Source: Pirellulaceae bacterium
Lineage (GTDB): Bacteria > Planctomycetota > Planctomycetia > Pirellulales > Pirellulaceae
Direction of reading: 5' to 3'
NCBI GenBank assembly: GCA_026004795.1
Contig: BPJV01000016.1
Location: 1 to 34,137 of the forward strand
DNA: 34,137 bases
The notes beneath the pieces are model-generated. The model had not been told where the DNA came from. It saw only the letters and a list, made by a program, of their open reading frames with translations, and ran no database searches. Positions 3,822-29,945 of the stretch are shown one piece after another (within the stretch, counting starts at the first letter, position 1; each line of letters opens with the position of its first letter). The position numbers and the translations under genes were made by a program.

Positions 3822-4183
3822 GGATCAACCTCGTCCTATCGGGAAGGATGGAATGCGCGGTACGTCGCCGTGATTCAGGATGAATTTGTTCGCGGTGGCC
3901 TCGATTGCCACTTTCTCTGGGAGTGCCAGGCCACGGCGGACGAGCCTCCCGGCGAGCACCGCATCGGCAAGAAAACGCTAAGCCTACTATCCGACATGGA
4001 GATTGACTAGGCGGAATACCTCCTTTCCTGCTCCTCGCCCCATAGCATCGGCCATTCGTTCATAATGATTCGTCAGGCAGGGGTCTGCCAGCTTTGCACC
4101 TTTTCAATAGTGGGAGAAAGCTCGCAGCACGAAGAAGCTCGTGCACTTGCGACGATGCCTCGGTTTCACCAAGAGGACAGAGC
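3822..4183. other. Divergent intergenic region
   Basis: 362 bp between the divergently transcribed membrane protein and the Pcm-GGT gene. It should hold both promoters, but I cannot pick convincing -35/-10 boxes. The open frame of the right-hand gene extends to an upstream ATG at 4094. I prefer the start at 4184 because it is preceded by AAGAGGACAG and matches the usual Pcm N-terminus. Confidence 0.5.
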
Positions 4184-6586
4184 ATGACATCCGAACAAGA
4201 ACGTCCCGCAGCGTCTCAAGATTCGTGGCAGAAGGCCCGCGAGCAAATGGTAGAAGAACAAATCGTCGCACGAGGCATAACCAATCCACCGATTCTCGAT
4301 GCCATGCGCATCGTGCCGCGTGAATGCTTCGTAGCACCGCAAGATCGTCCTCACGCCTACGACGACCGCCCCCTTCCGATCGGCTATGGCCAGACGATTT
4401 CCCAGCCCTTCACCGTCGCTTTTATGGCCGACGCGCTGCAATTGAACGGGAATGAGCGCATCCTGGAAATCGGGACTGGTTGTGGTTATGCAGCGGCGGT
4501 ACTAAGCCGCCTGTGCCGAGAAGTGCATACGGTGGAACGCATTGCGGAGTTAGCCGAAGCGGCGCGTCGACGCCTGGCCGAGCTGGGATACACCAACGTC
4601 TTCGTCTACCCAGGCGACGGTAGTCGCGGCCTGCCCGAACATGCCCCCTACGATCGTATCATTGCCGCCGCGGCCGCCGAGCAGCTCCCCGTAGCACTTC
4701 AAGAACAGCTCGTCGACGGCGGCAAGATCGTGCTGCCGGTCGGCTCGACCCATGGAGTGCAGACCATGAAGCGGTATACTCGCCGAGGGGACGTATGGCA
4801 TGTCGAGGACCTGGGAAAATTCACCTTTGTGCCCCTGGTTGGTGGTGAAAAGAGTCGTCGCAACTTCTTGATCGGAAGCGCGGCCCTCTCGGCGGCAGCG
4901 ATTCTCGCTCGTGGTGCCGGACAGGTGTTTGCCCAAGCCCCCTCTGGCCCTACTACCGCAGGCACAGTAGCTCGAGGAAGCCGAGCTGCGGTGGCCACAG
5001 TGCATCCACTGGCGACCGCGGCGGGGATCGAAGCACTACAGCGCGGGGGCAATGCCATCGATGCGGCGGTGGCAGCCAGTCTGATGCTGGCAGTCGTTGA
5101 TGGATTCAATTCCGGACTCGGTGGTGGTGGACTGGCACTTGTTCGCGCTGGCAACGCCATCCATGCCATCGACGGCCGAGAAACCGCCCCGTCCGGCGCC
5201 AGACCGGAGCTGTACCTTCGCGACGGAAAACCGGCTCCAGAACTCAGCCAGACGGGCCCCCTGGCGGTCGCCGTCCCCGGTCTGCTTGCCTTGCTAGAAG
5301 AAATGCAGTCTCGGTGGGGCCGTTTGGACTGGAAATGGGCACTCGAGCACGCGGCTCAGGTAGCGGCAGAAGGCTTCGAGCTGGATGCCTATTACGCCAG
5401 TCGGCTTGGTAGCGCCGCCCGCTCGCTGCGCCGCTTCGCCGCTTCTTCATCCATCTTTCTCGACGCCCAGGGCCGACCATGGCCAGTAGGTCACCGCCTG
5501 ATCCAACACGACCTGGCCAGCAGTTTACGCCAAATTGCATCGGAAGGAGTCGACTGGTTTTATCGCGGTCCGTTCGCCCAGCGACTGGAAACGCTGATGA
5601 AAGAAACGGGTGGCGTGATGACTGCCGAGGATCTGGCCAACTATCGCGTCAAAGAGCGTTCGCCCATCGTCGGTTCCTATGGCCATGCCCTGGTCTATGG
5701 ATTCCCGCCACCAAGTTCCGGAGGAATCCACATCGCCCAGATGCTCGGCATGCTCTCTCACTTCGACGTGCGGGAGCTCTATCGGCGATCGGAAGCAACT
5801 TGGCTGCACGTATTGGCCGAATGCATGAAACGCGCCATGGCCGACCGGGCCCATTGGTTGGGCGATGCCGATTTTGTGCAAGTTCCGCTCGGTTTGCTTG
5901 ATCCGAGCTATTTACAGACTAGAGCCTCCGACATCGATCTGATGCGCGCCACGCCGGTAAAGAGGCACGGATCGCCTCCCGCCGCCGACCACCTCTTTTT
6001 CGACCGCTCGTCACATACCACGCACCTAACCACGGCGGACGACGCAGGAAACGTGGTGGCGCTGACACAGACGATCAATACGACGTTCGGATCCAAGATG
6101 ACGGTCCCTGGAACCGGAATCGTTCTGAACAACGAAATGGACGATTTCAGCTTGGCACCTGGCGTCCCCAATGCCTTCGGCCTGGTAGGCTCCCAGGCCA
6201 ATGCCATTGTGCCTGGAAAGCGTCCGTTGTCGAGCATGAGCCCCACGATCGTATGTCATGCCCAGGACCAGTTTCACCTGACTTGCGGCGCGGCAGGCGG
6301 CCCCCGAATCATCACCACTGTCCTGCAAATCCTCACTCGCATGCTGGACTTGGACCAGACGATCGGCGATGCCATTGCGGCCCCACGCATCCACCATCAG
6401 TGGTCACCCGACGAATTAGTTTGCGAATCCTCGCTGCCAGCGTCCCTCGTGAAGGAACTGGAAGCGATGGGGCACCGAGTGCGCACGGTCAAGACGGCTG
6501 CCGTCGCCCAAGGCATCGCCCGGCAGCATTCTCAGTTCGAGGCAGCCTCCGATCCTCGCGTCCCCAGTGCATCAACCTGTTTGTGA
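4184..6586 (+). CDS. Protein-L-isoaspartate methyltransferase / gamma-glutamyltranspeptidase fusion
   Basis: 800 aa, two enzymes in one frame. Residues about 15-222 are a complete Pcm: MVEEQIVARGI, the QTISQP signature, SAM motif I ILEIGTGCGYAAAVL (about 93-107), and the usual end at DLGKFTFVPLVGG. Pcm repairs isoaspartyl sites in damaged proteins using S-adenosylmethionine. Residues about 260-790 are a gamma-glutamyltranspeptidase of the E. coli type: GGNAIDAAVAASL, the predicted autocleavage/nucleophile Thr612 in HTTHL, NTTFGSKM, LNNEMDDFS, PLSSMSPT and GGPRIITT. GGT hydrolyses or transfers gamma-glutamyl groups, typically from glutathione, outside the cytoplasm. At the junction (about 222-255) sits SRRNFLIGSAALSAAA and a small-residue run ending AQA, a Tat-like signal peptide. 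An in-frame GTG at 4829 could start a separately exported GGT, but no good Shine-Dalgarno precedes it. The start was chosen for AAGAGGACAG upstream. Confidence 0.9.
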   Translation: MTSEQERPAASQDSWQKAREQMVEEQIVARGITNPPILDAMRIVPRECFVAPQDRPHAYDDRPLPIGYGQTISQPFTVAFMADALQLNGNERILEIGTGCGYAAAVLSRLCREVHTVERIAELAEAARRRLAELGYTNVFVYPGDGSRGLPEHAPYDRIIAAAAAEQLPVALQEQLVDGGKIVLPVGSTHGVQTMKRYTRRGDVWHVEDLGKFTFVPLVGGEKSRRNFLIGSAALSAAAILARGAGQVFAQAPSGPTTAGTVARGSRAAVATVHPLATAAGIEALQRGGNAIDAAVAASLMLAVVDGFNSGLGGGGLALVRAGNAIHAIDGRETAPSGARPELYLRDGKPAPELSQTGPLAVAVPGLLALLEEMQSRWGRLDWKWALEHAAQVAAEGFELDAYYASRLGSAARSLRRFAASSSIFLDAQGRPWPVGHRLIQHDLASSLRQIASEGVDWFYRGPFAQRLETLMKETGGVMTAEDLANYRVKERSPIVGSYGHALVYGFPPPSSGGIHIAQMLGMLSHFDVRELYRRSEATWLHVLAECMKRAMADRAHWLGDADFVQVPLGLLDPSYLQTRASDIDLMRATPVKRHGSPPAADHLFFDRSSHTTHLTTADDAGNVVALTQTINTTFGSKMTVPGTGIVLNNEMDDFSLAPGVPNAFGLVGSQANAIVPGKRPLSSMSPTIVCHAQDQFHLTCGAAGGPRIITTVLQILTRMLDLDQTIGDAIAAPRIHHQWSPDELVCESSLPASLVKELEAMGHRVRTVKTAAVAQGIARQHSQFEAASDPRVPSASTCL

Positions 6587-18414: not shown

Positions 18415-18524
18415 CGCGGCCAGACGGCAAGGCAGGAAGGCCGCCGGGTATCGCCTTGCCCATTTCGGCTATAATGGAAGTCGAGTTGCCAGACATGTCC
18501 TTCCGTTTTTTCAGGAAATATGCC

Positions 18525-19520
18525 ATGAATCGCATCGTCCTGGCTATCGTAGTCGCATTGATCGTTTACTCTGTCTGGATGCGGATCCCCGCCTTCAAGG
18601 ACGACACGCAGAATCCCGATTCCGCTGCTGCGGCGGGCTTCGAAAGCGGTGACCAACCGCCAATAGCCGACGAAGTAGTGACGTCAAGCAAAGCCGAGGA
18701 CGTTGCAACCGGTCCATCCGAAACGGATGACGACCAACGACTTTCCCCCCGCACCGATCCTCTCGTCATGGTGGCAGCCGACCTGGACGGCGATAACGGC
18801 CCCACTGAGGCTGAGACCGGCGAGAGCCAGAACTTCCCCATCGCAGAAGCGTCCCAACGTGCATCAACCTCGCACCGCAATTCCGCGGCGGGTGAAAGCA
18901 ATCTGGAAGTGGAAAACTCCGTTGCCAGCAAGGAAGCATCCCCATCACCTCCTTCCTCAAAAGACCTAAGCACAGCCATGTCCAACTCTACAGAACCCAG
19001 TGCGAAGTCTTCTTCAGCGGCAAACCCTACGGTTCGAATAGCCAAGCAGTACAACCCGCTGTCTCCCGAAGAGAAACGGATCATCTGGTACAAGGGCACC
19101 GAGTTTCCAGGAACGGGAGAGTATGAACATAACAAACGGAAGGGAACCTACATTTGCCGCCAATGCAATGCCGTGCTGTATCGGAGCGACGACAAGTTCG
19201 AGAGCGGTTGTGGCTGGCCCAGCTTCGACGATGAGGTCAAAGGGGCCGTCAAACGGGTCCCCGACCCGGACGGTGTGCGCACGGAAATCGTGTGTGCCAA
19301 CTGCGGTGGCCATCTAGGCCACGTGTTCATTGGAGAAGGTTTTACCCCGAAGAATACGCGACACTGCGTGAATTCGATTTCCTTGCGATTCATCCCCGAC
19401 GGCAAACCCATCCCGCCGATGATCGTGCTGGAGGAGAAAGCTCAGCAGGGCTCGCAGCCGCGATCGGGATCTCAGTCGTCCCAGACCACCGACCCGCCGC
19501 CGTCGACCAGCAATCAGTAG
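18525..19520 (+). CDS. msrB: Membrane-anchored peptide-methionine (R)-S-oxide reductase MsrB
   Basis: 331 aa. A single N-terminal membrane segment ([18 protein letters not shown]) is followed by about 145 residues of Ser/Thr/Glu/Asp-rich linker and then a full MsrB domain (about 168-300). The domain has zinc-binding CRQC and [12 protein letters not shown], the [10 protein letters not shown] block, and the catalytic [11 protein letters not shown] cysteine. The enzyme reduces methionine-R-sulfoxide in proteins. The anchor and linker place it outside the cytoplasmic membrane, where it would repair envelope proteins. The frame is open upstream (ATG 18456 and 18495), but ATG 18525 puts the membrane helix directly at the N-terminus and has AGGAA 8 bases upstream. 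The Pro/Ser/Gln-rich tail is probably disordered. Confidence 0.93.
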
Positions 19521-25042: not shown

Positions 25043-26062
25043 ATGGATTCGAACGTACCACCGTTCTCTATCGGCAGGATCCCAACCGTCGATCTCTCCG
25101 GCACCGCACATTTCTTGGAGGATGTGCTTGATGGCTTGCGACAGAAACCGAAGCGGCTGGCGAGCAAGTATTTTTATGACCATCGCGGTTCGCAACTGTT
25201 CGATGCCATCTGCGGGCTCGACGAATACTATCTGACGCGAGCCGAATCGGAAATCATGGAGACGTACGCCGACGAAATGGCGATCCAGATCGGTCGGCGG
25301 GTGATGCTCGTCGAGTACGGCAGCGGCAGCAGCGTCAAGACGCGGCAACTGCTCGACGTCCTCATCGATCCGGCGTGCTATGTGCCTGTCGATATTTCGG
25401 AAGACCACCTGCTTCAAACTGCCGAGGAACTGGCCCGCGCGTATCCGGATATCGAAATCGCCCCAGTTTGCGCAGATTTTTCGCAGCCCTTTGACCTCCC
25501 ACCCGTGGCAGCGGCCTACTCGCACATCGCCGTCTACTTCCCTGGCTCGACGATCGGCAATTTCACCGCATCCGCTGCTCGGCGAATTCTCCGGCAGATC
25601 GCTGGGCAGGTCGGTCCCGGCGGCGGGCTGCTTATCGGGATCGACCTGCACAAGTCAAACGAAACCATCGAGCGGGCGTACAATGATGCGGCTGGAATCA
25701 CCGCGGCCTTCAACAAAAACTTGTTGGTGCGCATCAACCGGGAACTCGACGCGGACTTCGATATCGACCAATTCGACTACCGGGCCCGCTACAACATCGA
25801 ACAACAACGCGTGGAAAGTTTTTTGATCAGCAATAGTCGGCAATCGGTAACCGTTGCCGGAGAACAGTTTATCTTCGACGCGGGCGAACCGATACTCACC
25901 GAATACTCGCACAAGTACACCATCGATGGGTTCGCCAATCTAGCGTCACCTGCCGGTTGGGCCATCCACAAGGTGTGGACGGACCGGCAACGGTTGTTCG
26001 CCGTCGTGCACATGGTTGTCGAATCCGACCCCCCGTTGCAAGCATCCGAGCCGGATCGATGA
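25043..26062 (+). CDS. egtD: L-histidine N-alpha-methyltransferase EgtD
   Basis: 339 aa. Trimethylates histidine to hercynine, the first step of ergothioneine biosynthesis, using three S-adenosylmethionines. Motifs typical of EgtD (formerly DUF2260): KYFYDHRGSQLFDAICGLDE then YYLTRAESEI, SAM motif VEYGSGSSVKTRQLLD, YFPGSTIGNF, LIGIDLHKS, YNIEQQRVESFLIS and TEYSHKYTIDGF. The frame opens at GTG 25037; ATG 25043 is the more likely start. Its stop overlaps the next gene start (ATGA), so it heads a translationally coupled egtD-ATPase-transporter-egtB operon. It is divergent from pstB across a 435-bp gap. Confidence 0.93.
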   Translation: MDSNVPPFSIGRIPTVDLSGTAHFLEDVLDGLRQKPKRLASKYFYDHRGSQLFDAICGLDEYYLTRAESEIMETYADEMAIQIGRRVMLVEYGSGSSVKTRQLLDVLIDPACYVPVDISEDHLLQTAEELARAYPDIEIAPVCADFSQPFDLPPVAAAYSHIAVYFPGSTIGNFTASAARRILRQIAGQVGPGGGLLIGIDLHKSNETIERAYNDAAGITAAFNKNLLVRINRELDADFDIDQFDYRARYNIEQQRVESFLISNSRQSVTVAGEQFIFDAGEPILTEYSHKYTIDGFANLASPAGWAIHKVWTDRQRLFAVVHMVVESDPPLQASEPDR

Positions 26063-26793
26063 TCCTCAATGACGTGTGGAAATCATTTGGTCAGCGGCAA
26101 GTCGTGCAGGCGATCGACCTGCACCTGCAACGAGGAAAAACCTACGCTCTGATCGGCCCCAGCGGTTGTGGCAAAACAACTCTGCTCAAGCTAATGATCG
26201 GGCTCACATGGCCGGACCGCGGGACCATTTCGCTCGATGGCATGACTCTCAATCGCGAAAACGTGCGGCAGTGGCGGATGCGATTTGGATACGTCATCCA
26301 GCAGGGCGGGCTCTTCCCGCACCTGACCGCATGGAAAAACGTCACCTTGATGGCAGAGGTCCTCAAGCGACCGCCGGACAAGATTCGCCAACGCGTGGCC
26401 GAACTCGCCCAGTTGGCGGACATGAACGAGGAAACGTTGACGCGTTATCCAATCCAACTGTCCGGCGGCCAACGACAGCGGGTCAGTCTCATGCGCGCCC
26501 TGATGCTCGACCCCGAATTCCTCCTGTTCGACGAACCTCTTTCCGCCTTGGATCCCATGATTCGCGCTGAATTGCGTCAGCAGCTTAAACACATGTTTGC
26601 GACCCTCCACAAGACGGTCGTGTGGGTAACGCACGACCTGTACGAAGCGCGGTACTTCGCCGACGAGGTCATTTTGATCCATGGCGGGCGGGTGGAACAA
26701 CGAGGATCGCCGGAAGAGTTGATCCGCAACCCTGCCACTCCCTTCGCGCAGGAGTTTGTTTCGGCGCAGCTCTCTCTGGTGGAGAAAGCGTGA
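26059..26793 (+). CDS. ABC transporter ATPase, OpuCA/EgtV-like
   Basis: 244 aa. Walker A GPSGCGKTTLLKLMIG, Q-loop YVIQQGGLFPHLTAW, signature LSGGQRQRVSLMRALM and Walker B EFLLFDEPLSALDP. It belongs to the osmoprotectant/quaternary-amine importer ATPases (OpuCA type), but lacks the C-terminal CBS domains typical of OpuCA. The start overlaps the egtD stop and its own stop (TGATG) overlaps the start of the permease/binding-protein gene, so the three are translationally coupled. Substrate is inferred from the operon: ergothioneine, hercynine or a trimethylated precursor. Confidence 0.88.
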   Translation: MILNDVWKSFGQRQVVQAIDLHLQRGKTYALIGPSGCGKTTLLKLMIGLTWPDRGTISLDGMTLNRENVRQWRMRFGYVIQQGGLFPHLTAWKNVTLMAEVLKRPPDKIRQRVAELAQLADMNEETLTRYPIQLSGGQRQRVSLMRALMLDPEFLLFDEPLSALDPMIRAELRQQLKHMFATLHKTVVWVTHDLYEARYFADEVILIHGGRVEQRGSPEELIRNPATPFAQEFVSAQLSLVEKA

Positions 26794-28304
26794 TGGCCCG
26801 CTGGTGGATTCTCCTGGCGATCCTGTTGGCACTGGCCCTCATCCCCGTAGAAAGCCCGTTCCGCGGCGTGCAAATCGGCTCCAAGAAGTTCACGGAGAAC
26901 GTCATCCTGGGTGAGATGATGATGCAACTGGTTCGCAGCACCGGAGTCCCGGCCCGGCACCAAGCGCAGATGGGCGGTTCCAGCCTGCTGTTCCAGGCCC
27001 TACAGACCGGAACCATCGATGCCTACCCCGACTACACGGGTACCGTCCGCCTCGAACTCCTGTCGCGCCACAACCTGGCGGACGACCAGGCCGTGCGCGA
27101 CCATCTGGCGAACATGGGCATCGTGATGAGCCGCCCTCTCGGATTCCATAACGGGTACGCGCTGGGCATGCTCGAACAGCGAGCCCGGGAGCTGGGCATC
27201 GAAACGATTTCCGACCTCCTCGCTCACCCGGATTTACGGCTGGGACTTACAAACGAGTTCGTCAGCCGCAGTGACGGATGGCCGCGTCTCAAGCAACATT
27301 ACGGCCTGCCGCACGAGGTGATCGCCCTCGATCACGATATCGCCTACCGCCAGTTGGAAATGGGGCTGATCGATGTCATGGACGTTTACACGACCGATGC
27401 CAAAATCGCTGCGTTGGGCCTGAGGATACTGCAGGACGATCGCAACTACTTCCCGCGATATGAGGCGGTAATGCTCATCCGCAGCGATTTGCAACGACGC
27501 TATCCGGCGGCTTACCGCGGTTTGCTGCGGCTCGAAGGATGGATCGACCCGCAGCAGATGATCGCACTCAACGCCCAGGCCGAGGACAGCTCCTTGCCCG
27601 AGGCTGTCATCGCAGCGCAATTCCTTGAAAAGTCGTTGGGCATCCCGATGCAAGTCTCTCAACCGTCCAGATGGCAGCGTCTGGGCAAATACACGGTCGA
27701 GCATCTCCAGTTGGTCCGCCTGTCGTTGATCCCCGCCATCTTGGTCGGCATCCCCCTGGGCACCTTGGCGTTTTACCGCCGCAGAATCGGTGCGACCATT
27801 CTGGCCGCCGTCGGCATTATTCAGACCATTCCCGCGCTGGCCCTGCTGGTCCTGCTACTGCCCGTGATGGCCGCGGCAGGCGTTACATCGAACACCCTCA
27901 CCGCCGTAGTGGCCCTGTTCCTCTACAGCCTGCTGCCCATCGTACGCGGCACCTATACGGGGTTGGCCGATATCGACCCAGAGTATTCCGAGACGGCCGA
28001 AGCGCTGGGGATGCCTCCTCGCACCAGGCTACTGCGCATCGAACTGCCTCTGGCATCGCGCAGCATGATGGCGGGCATCAAGACGGCAGCCGTCATGAAC
28101 ATCGGCTTCGCCACGCTGGGCGCATTGATCGGTGCCGGCGGCTACGGCGTGCCAGTACTCACCGGCATCCGGAGATTCGATACCGCAGAGATTCTGCTCG
28201 GCGCGGTACCCGCGGCCCTGCTGGCACTGGCCTGCCAGTTAGCATTCGACGCTCTGGAGCGCGCGGTCGTTCCCCGCGGGTTGCGATTGAAACCATCCTC
28301 GTAA
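26793..28304 (+). CDS. Fused substrate-binding protein and permease, quaternary-amine/ergothioneine-type ABC importer
   Basis: 503 aa. A hydrophobic N-terminal segment (WWILLAILLALALIPVESPF) leads to an OpuAC/QAT-type binding domain (about 25-290: IGSKKFTENVILGEM, LLFQALQTGTIDAYPDYTGT, LGLTNEFVSRSDGW, VYTTDAKIAALGLRILQDDR), followed by a BPD-type permease domain (about 300-495: IPAILVGIPLGTLAF, IIQTIPALALLVLLLPVMAA, the EAA-like loop YSETAEALGMPPRTRLLRIE, TLGALIGAGGYGVPV). Known EgtU ergothioneine importers are also fused, but from memory with the permease first and the binding domain at the C-terminus; here the order is reversed. Lying between egtD and egtB, it probably moves ergothioneine or a betaine precursor. 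Glycine betaine/choline import is the alternative. Confidence 0.88.
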   Translation: MARWWILLAILLALALIPVESPFRGVQIGSKKFTENVILGEMMMQLVRSTGVPARHQAQMGGSSLLFQALQTGTIDAYPDYTGTVRLELLSRHNLADDQAVRDHLANMGIVMSRPLGFHNGYALGMLEQRARELGIETISDLLAHPDLRLGLTNEFVSRSDGWPRLKQHYGLPHEVIALDHDIAYRQLEMGLIDVMDVYTTDAKIAALGLRILQDDRNYFPRYEAVMLIRSDLQRRYPAAYRGLLRLEGWIDPQQMIALNAQAEDSSLPEAVIAAQFLEKSLGIPMQVSQPSRWQRLGKYTVEHLQLVRLSLIPAILVGIPLGTLAFYRRRIGATILAAVGIIQTIPALALLVLLLPVMAAAGVTSNTLTAVVALFLYSLLPIVRGTYTGLADIDPEYSETAEALGMPPRTRLLRIELPLASRSMMAGIKTAAVMNIGFATLGALIGAGGYGVPVLTGIRRFDTAEILLGAVPAALLALACQLAFDALERAVVPRGLRLKPSS

Positions 28305-28406
28305 CAATCAAGAATCTCCGACAAAGCGCCGAAAACGCCACTACGGCCAAGAATCCCGACTTCCCCGATGCAAACAGATACACCAGCGGAACCACGACAC
28401 CCTACC

Positions 28407-29711
28407 ATGACAACGATCGATCACCAAACGTCATTGGACGCGACCTCTGGACTGCTCAAGCGGTATCGTCAGGTGCGCGATTTCTCGGAACGGATCCGCC
28501 AACCCTTGTCGCCCGAGGACTGCATGGTCCAATCGATGCCCGATGTCAGCCCCACGCGCTGGCACCTGGCTCATACCACCTGGTTCTTCGAACAATTCGT
28601 CTTGAGCCGCGATCCCGAGTATCGGGTGTTCGACCAGGCGTACGGATTCTTGTTCAATTCCTATTACAACACCGTGGGCAAACAGTTTCCGCGTCCCCAG
28701 CGTGGCTTGATCTCGCGCCCCGGCCTGGCCGACATTCTGAACTACCGCCGGCACGTCGATTCGGCCATCGAGCAACGGTTGCAGAGCCAGGAAATTCCGG
28801 CGGAACTTTTGCCGATCATCGAAATCGGCTTGCAACACGAGCAGCAGCACCAGGAACTGATGCTCACCGATATCAAACACGTCCTGGCCTGCAATCCGAC
28901 CTGCCCCGCCTATCGCCGCGCGCCGCTCGCCGACGCGACTCCGCTCCCGCCGCTGAAGTTTGTCGACTTCGAAGAGGGCATCTACCACATCGGCTACGAC
29001 GGCGACGGGTTTGCTTTCGACCATGAACGCCCCAGGCACCGCGTTTTCTGCGATTCTTTCGCGATCGCCAACCGGCCGATCACGTGTGGCGAGTTCTTGC
29101 AATTCATTGAGGATGGAGGCTATCGCCGCCCAGAATTGTGGCTGTCGCTAGGTTGGCAGACCGTACAGCAAGAGGGTTGGAACGCTCCCCTGTACTGGAT
29201 CCACGAAGATGGCCAGTGGCAGACATTCACCCTCGCCGGCCGCATGCCGTTGGACTTGAATCAACCGGTGTGCCATGTGAGTTACTTTGAAGCCGACGCC
29301 TACGCCCGCTGGGCCGGATGCCGGTTGCCGACCGAAGCAGAATGGGAGGTCGCCGCCGCACCGCTTCCAGTCAGCGGATTGTTTGCCGATCGCTTGCTGG
29401 CCGATGACAAGGCCATCCATCCGGTGTATCAAGGCGAGGGCGACCAGGTGCTAAGCCAGCTCTTTGGCAGCGTTTGGGAATGGACGTCGAGCCCCTACAC
29501 GGCATACCCCGGCTATCGGCCTCCCGCCGGTGCCTTAGGGGAATACAACGGCAAGTTCCAGTGCAATCAGTTCGTGCTGCGCGGCGGTTCTTGCGCCAGC
29601 CCCAGCGAACATCTGCGAGCCACCTACCGCAACTTTTTTCCACCCCATGCACGTTGGCAGTTCAGCGGAATTCGCCTGGCTAGTTCTCCTTCCACTTCCA
29701 ACGACCGCTGA
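28407..29711 (+). CDS. egtB: Ergothioneine biosynthesis sulfoxide synthase EgtB
   Basis: 434 aa. Non-heme iron enzyme that joins hercynine to cysteine or gamma-glutamylcysteine as a sulfoxide. The N-terminal DinB-like domain has WHLAHTTWFFE (His53/His56) and HEQQHQELM (His144, His148), the predicted iron ligands. The C-terminal formylglycine-generating-enzyme/C-type-lectin fold has NRPITCGEFLQFIEDGGY, CRLPTEAEWEVAA, SVWEWTSSPY and LRGGSCASPSEHLRATYRNF. It ends the egt operon, 100 bp after the transporter. No egtA, egtC or egtE is in the window, so the sulfur donor cannot be told. The frame also contains an ATG at 28368; I chose 28407 because it gives the usual N-terminus. Confidence 0.93.
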   Translation: MTTIDHQTSLDATSGLLKRYRQVRDFSERIRQPLSPEDCMVQSMPDVSPTRWHLAHTTWFFEQFVLSRDPEYRVFDQAYGFLFNSYYNTVGKQFPRPQRGLISRPGLADILNYRRHVDSAIEQRLQSQEIPAELLPIIEIGLQHEQQHQELMLTDIKHVLACNPTCPAYRRAPLADATPLPPLKFVDFEEGIYHIGYDGDGFAFDHERPRHRVFCDSFAIANRPITCGEFLQFIEDGGYRRPELWLSLGWQTVQQEGWNAPLYWIHEDGQWQTFTLAGRMPLDLNQPVCHVSYFEADAYARWAGCRLPTEAEWEVAAAPLPVSGLFADRLLADDKAIHPVYQGEGDQVLSQLFGSVWEWTSSPYTAYPGYRPPAGALGEYNGKFQCNQFVLRGGSCASPSEHLRATYRNFFPPHARWQFSGIRLASSPSTSNDR

Positions 29712-29745
29712 TCACTCTGCCCCGCCTCACCACCAACTCCCTTCC

Positions 29746-29945
29746 CCCGTAGTGGAACTCGCCAGAGTTCTCTCAACACGTAGTGGCACTCCCCAAAATC
29801 CCGTGCCCCACGGCGGAACTCACCAGAACCCCGATGCCCTAGCTCACCCCCTATTGTAGGGGCTCGCCAAAATCCTCTCTCCCGGTAGTGGAACTCGCCA
29901 GAGTTCCCTCAACACGTAGTGGCACTCCCCAGAATTCCCATGTCA
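29746..29945. repeat. Degenerate ~30-bp repeat block
   Basis: About six units begin GTAGTGG or a variant. The best pair, GTAGTGGAACTCGCCAGAG.. followed by GTAGTGGCACTCCCC.., occurs at 29749-29803 and again at 29885-29936. Units contain the small palindrome GAACTC-GCCA-GAGTTC. There are no unique spacers, so it is not a CRISPR. It lies just downstream of egtB and next to the decayed integron integrase. Confidence 0.75.

Follow-up and report, generated by a model that had tools for sequence, protein, structure and literature searches.

Why should an organism that encodes synthesis of the antioxidant ergothioneine keep an importer among the same genes? This question is raised by a 34,137-nucleotide stretch of a Pirellulaceae bacterium (GenBank assembly GCA_026004795.1, contig BPJV01000016.1, positions 1 to 34,137 of the forward strand; hereafter the window), in which egtD and egtB enclose the genes for an ATP-binding cassette (ABC) transporter, namely an ATPase and a protein that joins a binding domain to a permease (the fusion). 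To our knowledge, all characterised bacterial ergothioneine importers belong to organisms that take ergothioneine from a host. We find that egtD lies beside transporters of this type in many genomes and, because this linkage is conserved in many arrangements, a role for the importer in ergothioneine-type metabolism is likely. On balance, the importer would take up a trimethylhistidine betaine, most likely finished ergothioneine or selenoneine.

The four genes are co-directional, and the overlaps between them are confirmed in the sequence. The first, egtD (25043-26062, +; TIGR03438, PF10017), encodes the L-histidine N-alpha-methyltransferase that makes hercynine; its product scores 391 bits against TIGR03438 (cut-off, 290.9), placing it within that equivalog, and the solved structures closest to it are those of histidine N-alpha-methyltransferases (7scf, 209 bits; EgtD 4uy5, 203 bits). 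The egtD stop codon (TGA, 26060-26062) and the ATPase start codon (ATG, 26059-26061) overlap as ATGA (26059-26062, +). The ATPase (26059-26793, +; PF00005 at residues 17-161) has 244 amino acids (aa) and no CBS domain among its three Pfam matches, and ProV-like models are among its best NCBIfam matches, although each of the 25 matches listed, out of 187, falls below its cut-off. Its stop codon (26791-26793) in turn overlaps the start of the fusion (ATG, 26793-26795) as TGATG (26791-26795, +). The fusion (503 aa; 26793-28304, +) carries PF04069 at residues 26-280 followed by PF00528 at residues 316-495, giving a binding domain at residues 26-280 (26868-27632, +; OpuAC, and alignable to the contacts of the pneumococcal binding domain SpEgtUC) and a transmembrane permease domain at residues 293-492 (27669-28268, +; BPD_transp_1 and predicted helices). 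Last comes egtB, the ergothioneine biosynthesis sulfoxide synthase gene (28407-29711, +; TIGR03440), 102 bp after the fusion, or 63 bp if the alternative in-frame ATG at 28368 is used. Its product is identified as EgtB by 579.7 bits against TIGR03440 (cut-off, 360) versus 354.5 of 420 for the SenA model, and its best solved relative is EgtB (Cabther) 6o6l, at 505 bits versus 135 for 4x8b. The reading frames thus bear out the two overlaps, and the egtB gene roughly 100 bp further on, that a sequence-only reading of the locus had described.

A single operon is likely, and since the association is conserved elsewhere, chance adjacency is untenable. The same four-gene order is found in a second assembly (L044), on a contig of 3,057 bases whose ends truncate egtD and egtB, with 91-100% protein identity. 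In its own genome (5.59 Mb, 97% complete), the fusion is the sole match of its kind at E<=0.001. In this genome, neither the model for EgtE, the C-S lyase, nor that for EgtC finds anything over cut-off; the best EgtE score is 100 of 400 bits, and such matches also arise in 13 of 14 control genomes. The closest solved relative, Cabther EgtB, is presumably cysteine-using, and the absence of EgtC would then fit. Rfam gave no match above the gathering score and no tRNA was found, while promoter and terminator scans stayed at shuffle level (1 versus 1.8 and 5 versus 4.6).

The association recurs far beyond Pirellulaceae. A scan of GTDB species genomes returned 559 confirmed relatives among 594 stretches, of which the best 80 loci, from 79 genomes (L070 and L071 share one), were analysed. 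Within this set, egtD is in the flanks of 30 of the 80 loci and elsewhere in 36 of the 49 genomes lacking a flanking copy, so that 66 of 79 have egtD overall, fractions that hold for the nearer relatives. The check for egtD elsewhere covered 50 genomes, one of them the already linked L086, and 35 of the 50 had a match over cut-off. One relative, L113, is carried by a Myxococcus xanthus genome that encodes EgtD as well. Linked loci fall in nine named phyla (Planctomycetota, Myxococcota, Binatota, Pseudomonadota, Bacteroidota, Thermodesulfobacteriota, Nitrospinota, Poribacteria, and Acidobacteriota), the names being those of bins, and the sole Pseudomonadota locus, L121, is possibly affected, together with L016, by a binning error. 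The binding domain of L016 (G080, 8% contamination) is near-identical to that of L121, which comes from a gammaproteobacterial bin; probably either L016 or L121 sits in the wrong bin, and both were kept. Among loci holding egtD plus a gene for the second step of the pathway, there are 14 gene orders, inversions included (L139, whose metallopterin-type match is probably an unrelated molybdopterin protein, is counted under the order of L142), and the linked state requires at least 16 changes on the full-length tree. The 863 mechanically called open reading frames of the 80 loci were clustered to look for recurrent neighbours besides egtD, egtB, senA/senB, and the metallopterin protein. Further sizeable clusters, from 17, 12, and 10 loci, looked by eye like shadows, either opposite-strand or compositional, and with these discounted none recurred in nearly as many loci as egtD. 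The synteny of egtD and transporter is thus not unique to one genome, but widespread and conserved in many arrangements.

Near-identical or closely nested transporter domains also occur across bins of differing phyla (L016/L121, L105/L120, L060/L064/L065/L069, and L090). A Comamonas record nested within Myxococcus is one example, and the pattern suggests that some genomes were misbinned or mislabelled.

Three different second steps are found beside the transporter. EgtB itself is the neighbour in three scanned loci (L078, L080, and L093), whereas seven EgtB-like neighbours (L049, L056, L062, L067, L089, L094, and L017) all exceed the cut-off of the SenA model, at 27-31% identity to the EgtB of the window. 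A SenB-like gene, sought with the L056 protein, accompanies SenA in six of these seven loci, and the L056 SenB-like protein matches solved SenB at 3.9e-56. The third type is a molybdopterin oxidoreductase, which adjoins egtD in four loci (L051, L079, L086, and L112); both full-length cases scanned with Pfam (L051 and L086) carry a class-V aminotransferase on the same chain, while the L112 protein is cut by a contig end and L079 was assigned by size and similarity. The metallopterin ergothioneine synthase of Caldithrix is likewise built from a molybdopterin oxidoreductase joined to a class-V aminotransferase (PMC9516567), and the sections consulted of that paper name no co-encoded transporter of this type. 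We found no description of a linkage between egt genes and such a transporter in the literature searched, although an earlier mention in the Helicobacter pylori EgtUV paper cannot be excluded.

A separate observation concerns L017 and L138 (G050, of the same order as the Pirellulaceae bacterium), where genes for the ATPase, fusion, SenA, SenB, and EgtD follow one another in that order and are co-directional. By its gene content, this cluster is a candidate selenoneine operon with an importer.

Seventeen linked genomes (7 with egtD only, 6 SenA-linked, and 4 metallopterin-linked) were then checked genome-wide for EgtB. All seven egtD-only genomes hold a protein in the EgtB range elsewhere, four over cut-off and three at 336-347 bits of the EgtB model, a range in which SenA proteins score too; the six SenA-linked genomes reach 315-338 bits against the same model, and the four metallopterin-linked genomes have no EgtB match or only weak partial ones. 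Every second step known from the EgtD-EgtB, EgtD-SenA-SenB, and EgtD-metallopterin synthase gene sets occurs beside the fusion family. Judged by gene content, the linkage therefore tracks a class of compound and not one enzyme. Hercynine is common to all three pathways, as is its derivative of the 2-thio or 2-seleno type, and because the linked pathways share trimethylhistidine betaines, recapture of ergothioneine or selenoneine appears the best reading of the importer.

Co-occurrence was further probed at two depths. In 296 genomes of the same order (fusion at E<=1e-60, EgtD at E<=1e-40), the fusion was found in 42, EgtD in 67 (64 over cut-off), and EgtB over cut-off in 56; fusion and EgtD occur together in 24 (Fisher p 1.3e-7, a statistic that ignores kinship). 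In 23 of the 42 fusion genomes egtD and/or egtB lies within about 5 kb, two of these (G202 and G065) having egtB only, on short contigs, and in a further 3 (G005, G009, and G024) the pathway is present but away from the fusion. In 392 Planctomycetota genomes (fusion at E<=1e-80, EgtD at E<=1e-40), the fusion was found in 42 and EgtD in 88 (82 over cut-off). EgtD is present in 37 of the 42 fusion genomes (36 over cut-off) versus 51 of the 350 that lack the fusion, an odds ratio of 43 (p 3e-22, kinship again ignored), and in 11 of the 37 an EgtD match lies no more than 2.3 kb from the fusion, the near copies of G411 and G522 being under cut-off.

We next consider what kind of protein the fusion is. 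An AlphaFold2 model (mean predicted local distance difference test score 87, predicted TM-score 0.78, from a 15-sequence alignment) predicts a helix at the N-terminus, then a binding domain with two lobes and a permease made of helices, the lobes and membrane topology being assigned from the order of elements in the model and from family knowledge. The binding domain belongs to cluster F-III (PF04069, 174.5 bits), with Foldseek TM-scores of 0.78-0.84 (target length) to EgtU, ProX, and OpuBC domains. The best folds in the Protein Data Bank (PDB) are engineered nicotinic-ligand sensor domains, HpEgtU of H. pylori, and SpEgtUC; AfProX of Archaeoglobus fulgidus and OpuBC rank lower. As a test of ligand, the Foldseek ranking was rejected, with EgtU, ProX, and OpuBC intermixed, and so was grouping by score, as phmmer gives 121 (wild-type 7txl) to 125 (double mutant) bits for SpEgtUC, 122 for HpEgtU, and 121 for AfProX; scores from the A1 profile (205-208, 200, and 201, respectively) are likewise non-discriminating.

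Along the query, matches in the 80 loci run binding domain first, most of them spanning from about residue 26 or earlier to about residue 500, and since they follow the query in that order, the placement of the binding domain before the permease is, by alignment, a family trait. A tree was built from 117 non-duplicate members and three references. Before members were counted, L001 and L044 (copies of the Pirellulaceae locus) and the near-duplicates L045, L061, L063, L070, and L071 (at least 97% identity) were dropped from the 117-row set. The 117 members separate from SpEgtUC, HpEgtU, and AfProX with a Shimodaira-Hasegawa-like approximate likelihood ratio test (SH-aLRT) support of 98, by a quick method and with long reference branches. 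The egtB-linked planctomycete members group with the Pirellulaceae fusion in a set of 25, of which 22 are egtB-linked (support, 88), while 21 of the 29 egtD-less members fall in one other part of the tree, together with 8 members that have egtD elsewhere in the genome (support, 81).

How close, then, is the fusion to the known ergothioneine importers? Like the fusion, SpEgtU of Streptococcus pneumoniae (spd_1642-1643; and with it LmBilEB and the EgtUs of Enterococcus faecalis and Staphylococcus aureus) has the F-III fold, a fused binding domain and permease, and a separate ATPase, and it shares with the fusion the cage tyrosines, N339, K242/T296/R379, and E375. In contrast, the binding domain of SpEgtU is C-terminal (residues 232-503; PMC9732360) and that of the fusion N-terminal, and where SpEgtU has G244 and F293 the fusion has F and Y. 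The fusion also adjoins EgtD and EgtB. SpEgtU homologs are nearly exclusive to Firmicutes (PMC9732360). G244 and the Y-to-F switch at F293 are named by the EgtU authors as determinants of ergothioneine binding (PMC9732360), and by these published determinants the fusion is not an EgtU. HpEgtU (8dp6/8dp7), of the same fold, comes from an organism not known to make ergothioneine; it has G at 274, 9 of 14 identical contacts, and a place outside the fusion family in the tree (again on long branches). It likewise lacks G244 and F293 and was nonetheless crystallised with ergothioneine bound (8dp7). The H. pylori EgtU contributes to ergothioneine uptake with lower affinity (PMC9732360). The sequence-only reading had called the transporter EgtUV-like, which holds at the level of an importer of the EgtU/OpuC superfamily and is not supported for a strict EgtU, given the reversed domain order, the absent G244 and F293, and a tree position apart from SpEgtUC on long reference branches. 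Its further claim, that the organism both makes and moves ergothioneine or hercynine, survives in that EgtD and EgtB are encoded beside the importer in a conserved linkage, making an ergothioneine-type role likely, though not as a strict EgtUV system.

The binding site was compared at the 14 contact positions reported for SpEgtUC (PMC9732360). At SpEgtUC K242, I243, G244, T274, T275, F293, T296, N339, Y341, E375, R379, D381, Y419, and Y443, the Pirellulaceae fusion has K, K, F, G, S, Y, T, N, Y, E, R, D, Y, and Y. In fusion numbering, by alignment, this gives aromatics at Y81, Y122, Y199, and Y223, with N120, a carboxylate site of K31, T84, and R159, and E155; F33 corresponds to position 244 and Y81 to position 293. 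Kept from SpEgtUC are thus the cage tyrosines Y341/Y419/Y443, N339, the K242/T296/R379 carboxylate site, and E375. Among 49 linked non-duplicate members, K242, T296, E375, R379, Y419, and Y443 are found in all 49, Y341 in 47, and N339 in 45; position 244 is F in 47 and D in 2, and position 293 is Y in 48 and F in 1. As the cage and carboxylate residues are near-invariant in egtD-linked and egtD-less members alike, they mark a betaine pocket and leave the ligand undecided. Positions 243 and 274 need not be conserved, because I243P and T274G crystallised ergothioneine-bound (the SpEgtUC mutants I243P, I243A, T274G, and I243P/T274G, all with ergothioneine, by PDB titles among the Foldseek matches). 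Pocket positions 32, 154, 222, 224, 182, and 79, which differ between members with and without egtD, were tried as specificity determinants and dropped, the independent pairs being too few (5, starred branches; median p 1).

Several observations weigh against uptake of ergothioneine or selenoneine. The relatives were sought with an egt-linked alignment and ranked against the Pirellulaceae protein, no egtD was seen in 13 of the 79 genomes of the best-80 set, and, of the 42 fusion genomes in the same-order sample, 16 lack both EgtD and EgtB at the model cut-offs, while 43 of the 67 egtD genomes there have no fusion at E<=1e-60. In the site itself, identical contacts number 11 of 14 for AfProX and 9 each for SpEgtUC and HpEgtU, F replaces G244 and Y replaces F293 as in AfProX, the cage residues are unchanged in egtD-less members, and residue differences between egtD-bearing and egtD-less members are inseparable from relatedness by the independent pairs. 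In SpEgtUC, G244F costs about 100-fold in affinity for ergothioneine and makes the protein less stable (PMC9732360).

The site residues speak for a glycine/proline, or general, betaine importer that would supply methyl groups for the three S-adenosylmethionine-dependent methylations of EgtD or serve osmoprotection. AfProX, a glycine/proline betaine binder, differs from the fusion among the 14 contacts only in D for N at 339, P for K at 243, and T for S at 275; the F and Y at 244 and 293 are those that distinguish AfProX from EgtU (PMC9732360), and the egtD-less relatives share the site. Moreover, the site residues would be compatible with uptake of glycine betaine, choline, or carnitine by an importer of the OpuA/OpuC/ProU kind. 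CBS-bearing ATPases are, however, typical of the osmosensing OpuA/OpuC/ProV (ProU) importers, and by Pfam the 244-aa ATPase has no such module. AfProX is a stand-alone binding protein with no permease attached, and we know of no link between AfProX and egtD. A betaine importer leaves unexplained why egtD is linked across nine named phyla and alongside three different second steps, in loci where no neighbour cluster rivals egtD once the shadows excluded by eye are discounted, and we regard it as rather unlikely. The sequence-only reading had said in advance that a synteny unique to this genome, together with a binding domain of the glycine-betaine type, would speak against it; the outcome is split, as the synteny is not unique and the site residues come nearest to AfProX.

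Alternatively, the importer might bring in hercynine, the intermediate shared by all three nearby second steps, so that EgtB, SenA, or the metallopterin synthase would draw on imported hercynine as well as on that made by EgtD. This we consider improbable, as one would look for an importer of a precursor next to second-step genes in genomes that lack egtD, whereas the transporter accompanies the hercynine-making egtD itself (37 of 42 in the phylum sample); SpEgtUC, moreover, binds hercynine weakly, though its site differs (PMC9732360). Shared regulation only, with an unrelated compatible-solute importer placed beside ergothioneine genes in a stress regulon and no common metabolite, would suit the incomplete co-occurrence (the 16 of 42 above), but is very improbable, since a metabolic link better accounts for the tight overlaps in the window and for 14 gene orders that keep these partners, and a selenoneine gene is the partner in seven loci.

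With uptake of ergothioneine or selenoneine as the preferred reading, the operon would make ergothioneine through EgtD, then EgtB, plus a C-S lyase. The membrane-tethered binding domain would capture a trimethylhistidine betaine outside the inner membrane, ergothioneine most likely and selenoneine in the SenA-linked relatives, and the ATPase would drive the captured betaine back to the cytoplasm, so as to retain product that has leaked or to salvage product released by neighbours. From the binding domain we infer import as the direction; the ligand, the co-expression, and the purpose are put forward in the same conditional sense. In its widest form, for which we see about even chances, the proposal is that this so far undescribed and widespread importer family may serve trimethylhistidine chalcogen metabolism as its dedicated uptake route, recruited repeatedly to egtD clusters regardless of whether the second step is the O2-dependent EgtB, the selenium-inserting SenA, or the anaerobic metallopterin synthase, with producers recapturing or exchanging ergothioneine and selenoneine as shared goods. 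If so, producers both make and import these compounds, implying leakage, recycling, or exchange between cells, and the family holds a candidate selenoneine importer, of which we found none in the literature searched. Such an importer could help or hinder the fermentative production of ergothioneine, in which secretion and re-uptake are under study (PMC12689799).

Four of the 16 same-order fusion genomes without EgtD and EgtB (L032, L040, L041, and L043; G167, G124, G278, and G163) have sub-cut-off matches to the EgtB model in frames of 764-835 aa, which we take to be the size of OvoA (ovothiol) proteins; such frames are frequent in that family where the transporter is absent as well. In the window, the stretch downstream of egtB (29711-29900) contains recurring 'gtagtggaactcgcca'-like words, in which Tandem Repeats Finder called no array, and a DDE transposase (PF01609; 32253-33350, +) lies about 2.5 kb past egtB. 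Upstream, a methionine sulfoxide reductase B (SelR, residues 202-314) follows a long Ser/Ala/Glu-rich N-terminal region at 18456-19520 (+). Finally, an 830-aa frame at 4094-6586 (+) encodes a protein-L-isoaspartate methyltransferase (residues 49-252) fused with a gamma-glutamyltranspeptidase (residues 313-822), a combination that we do not know from elsewhere.

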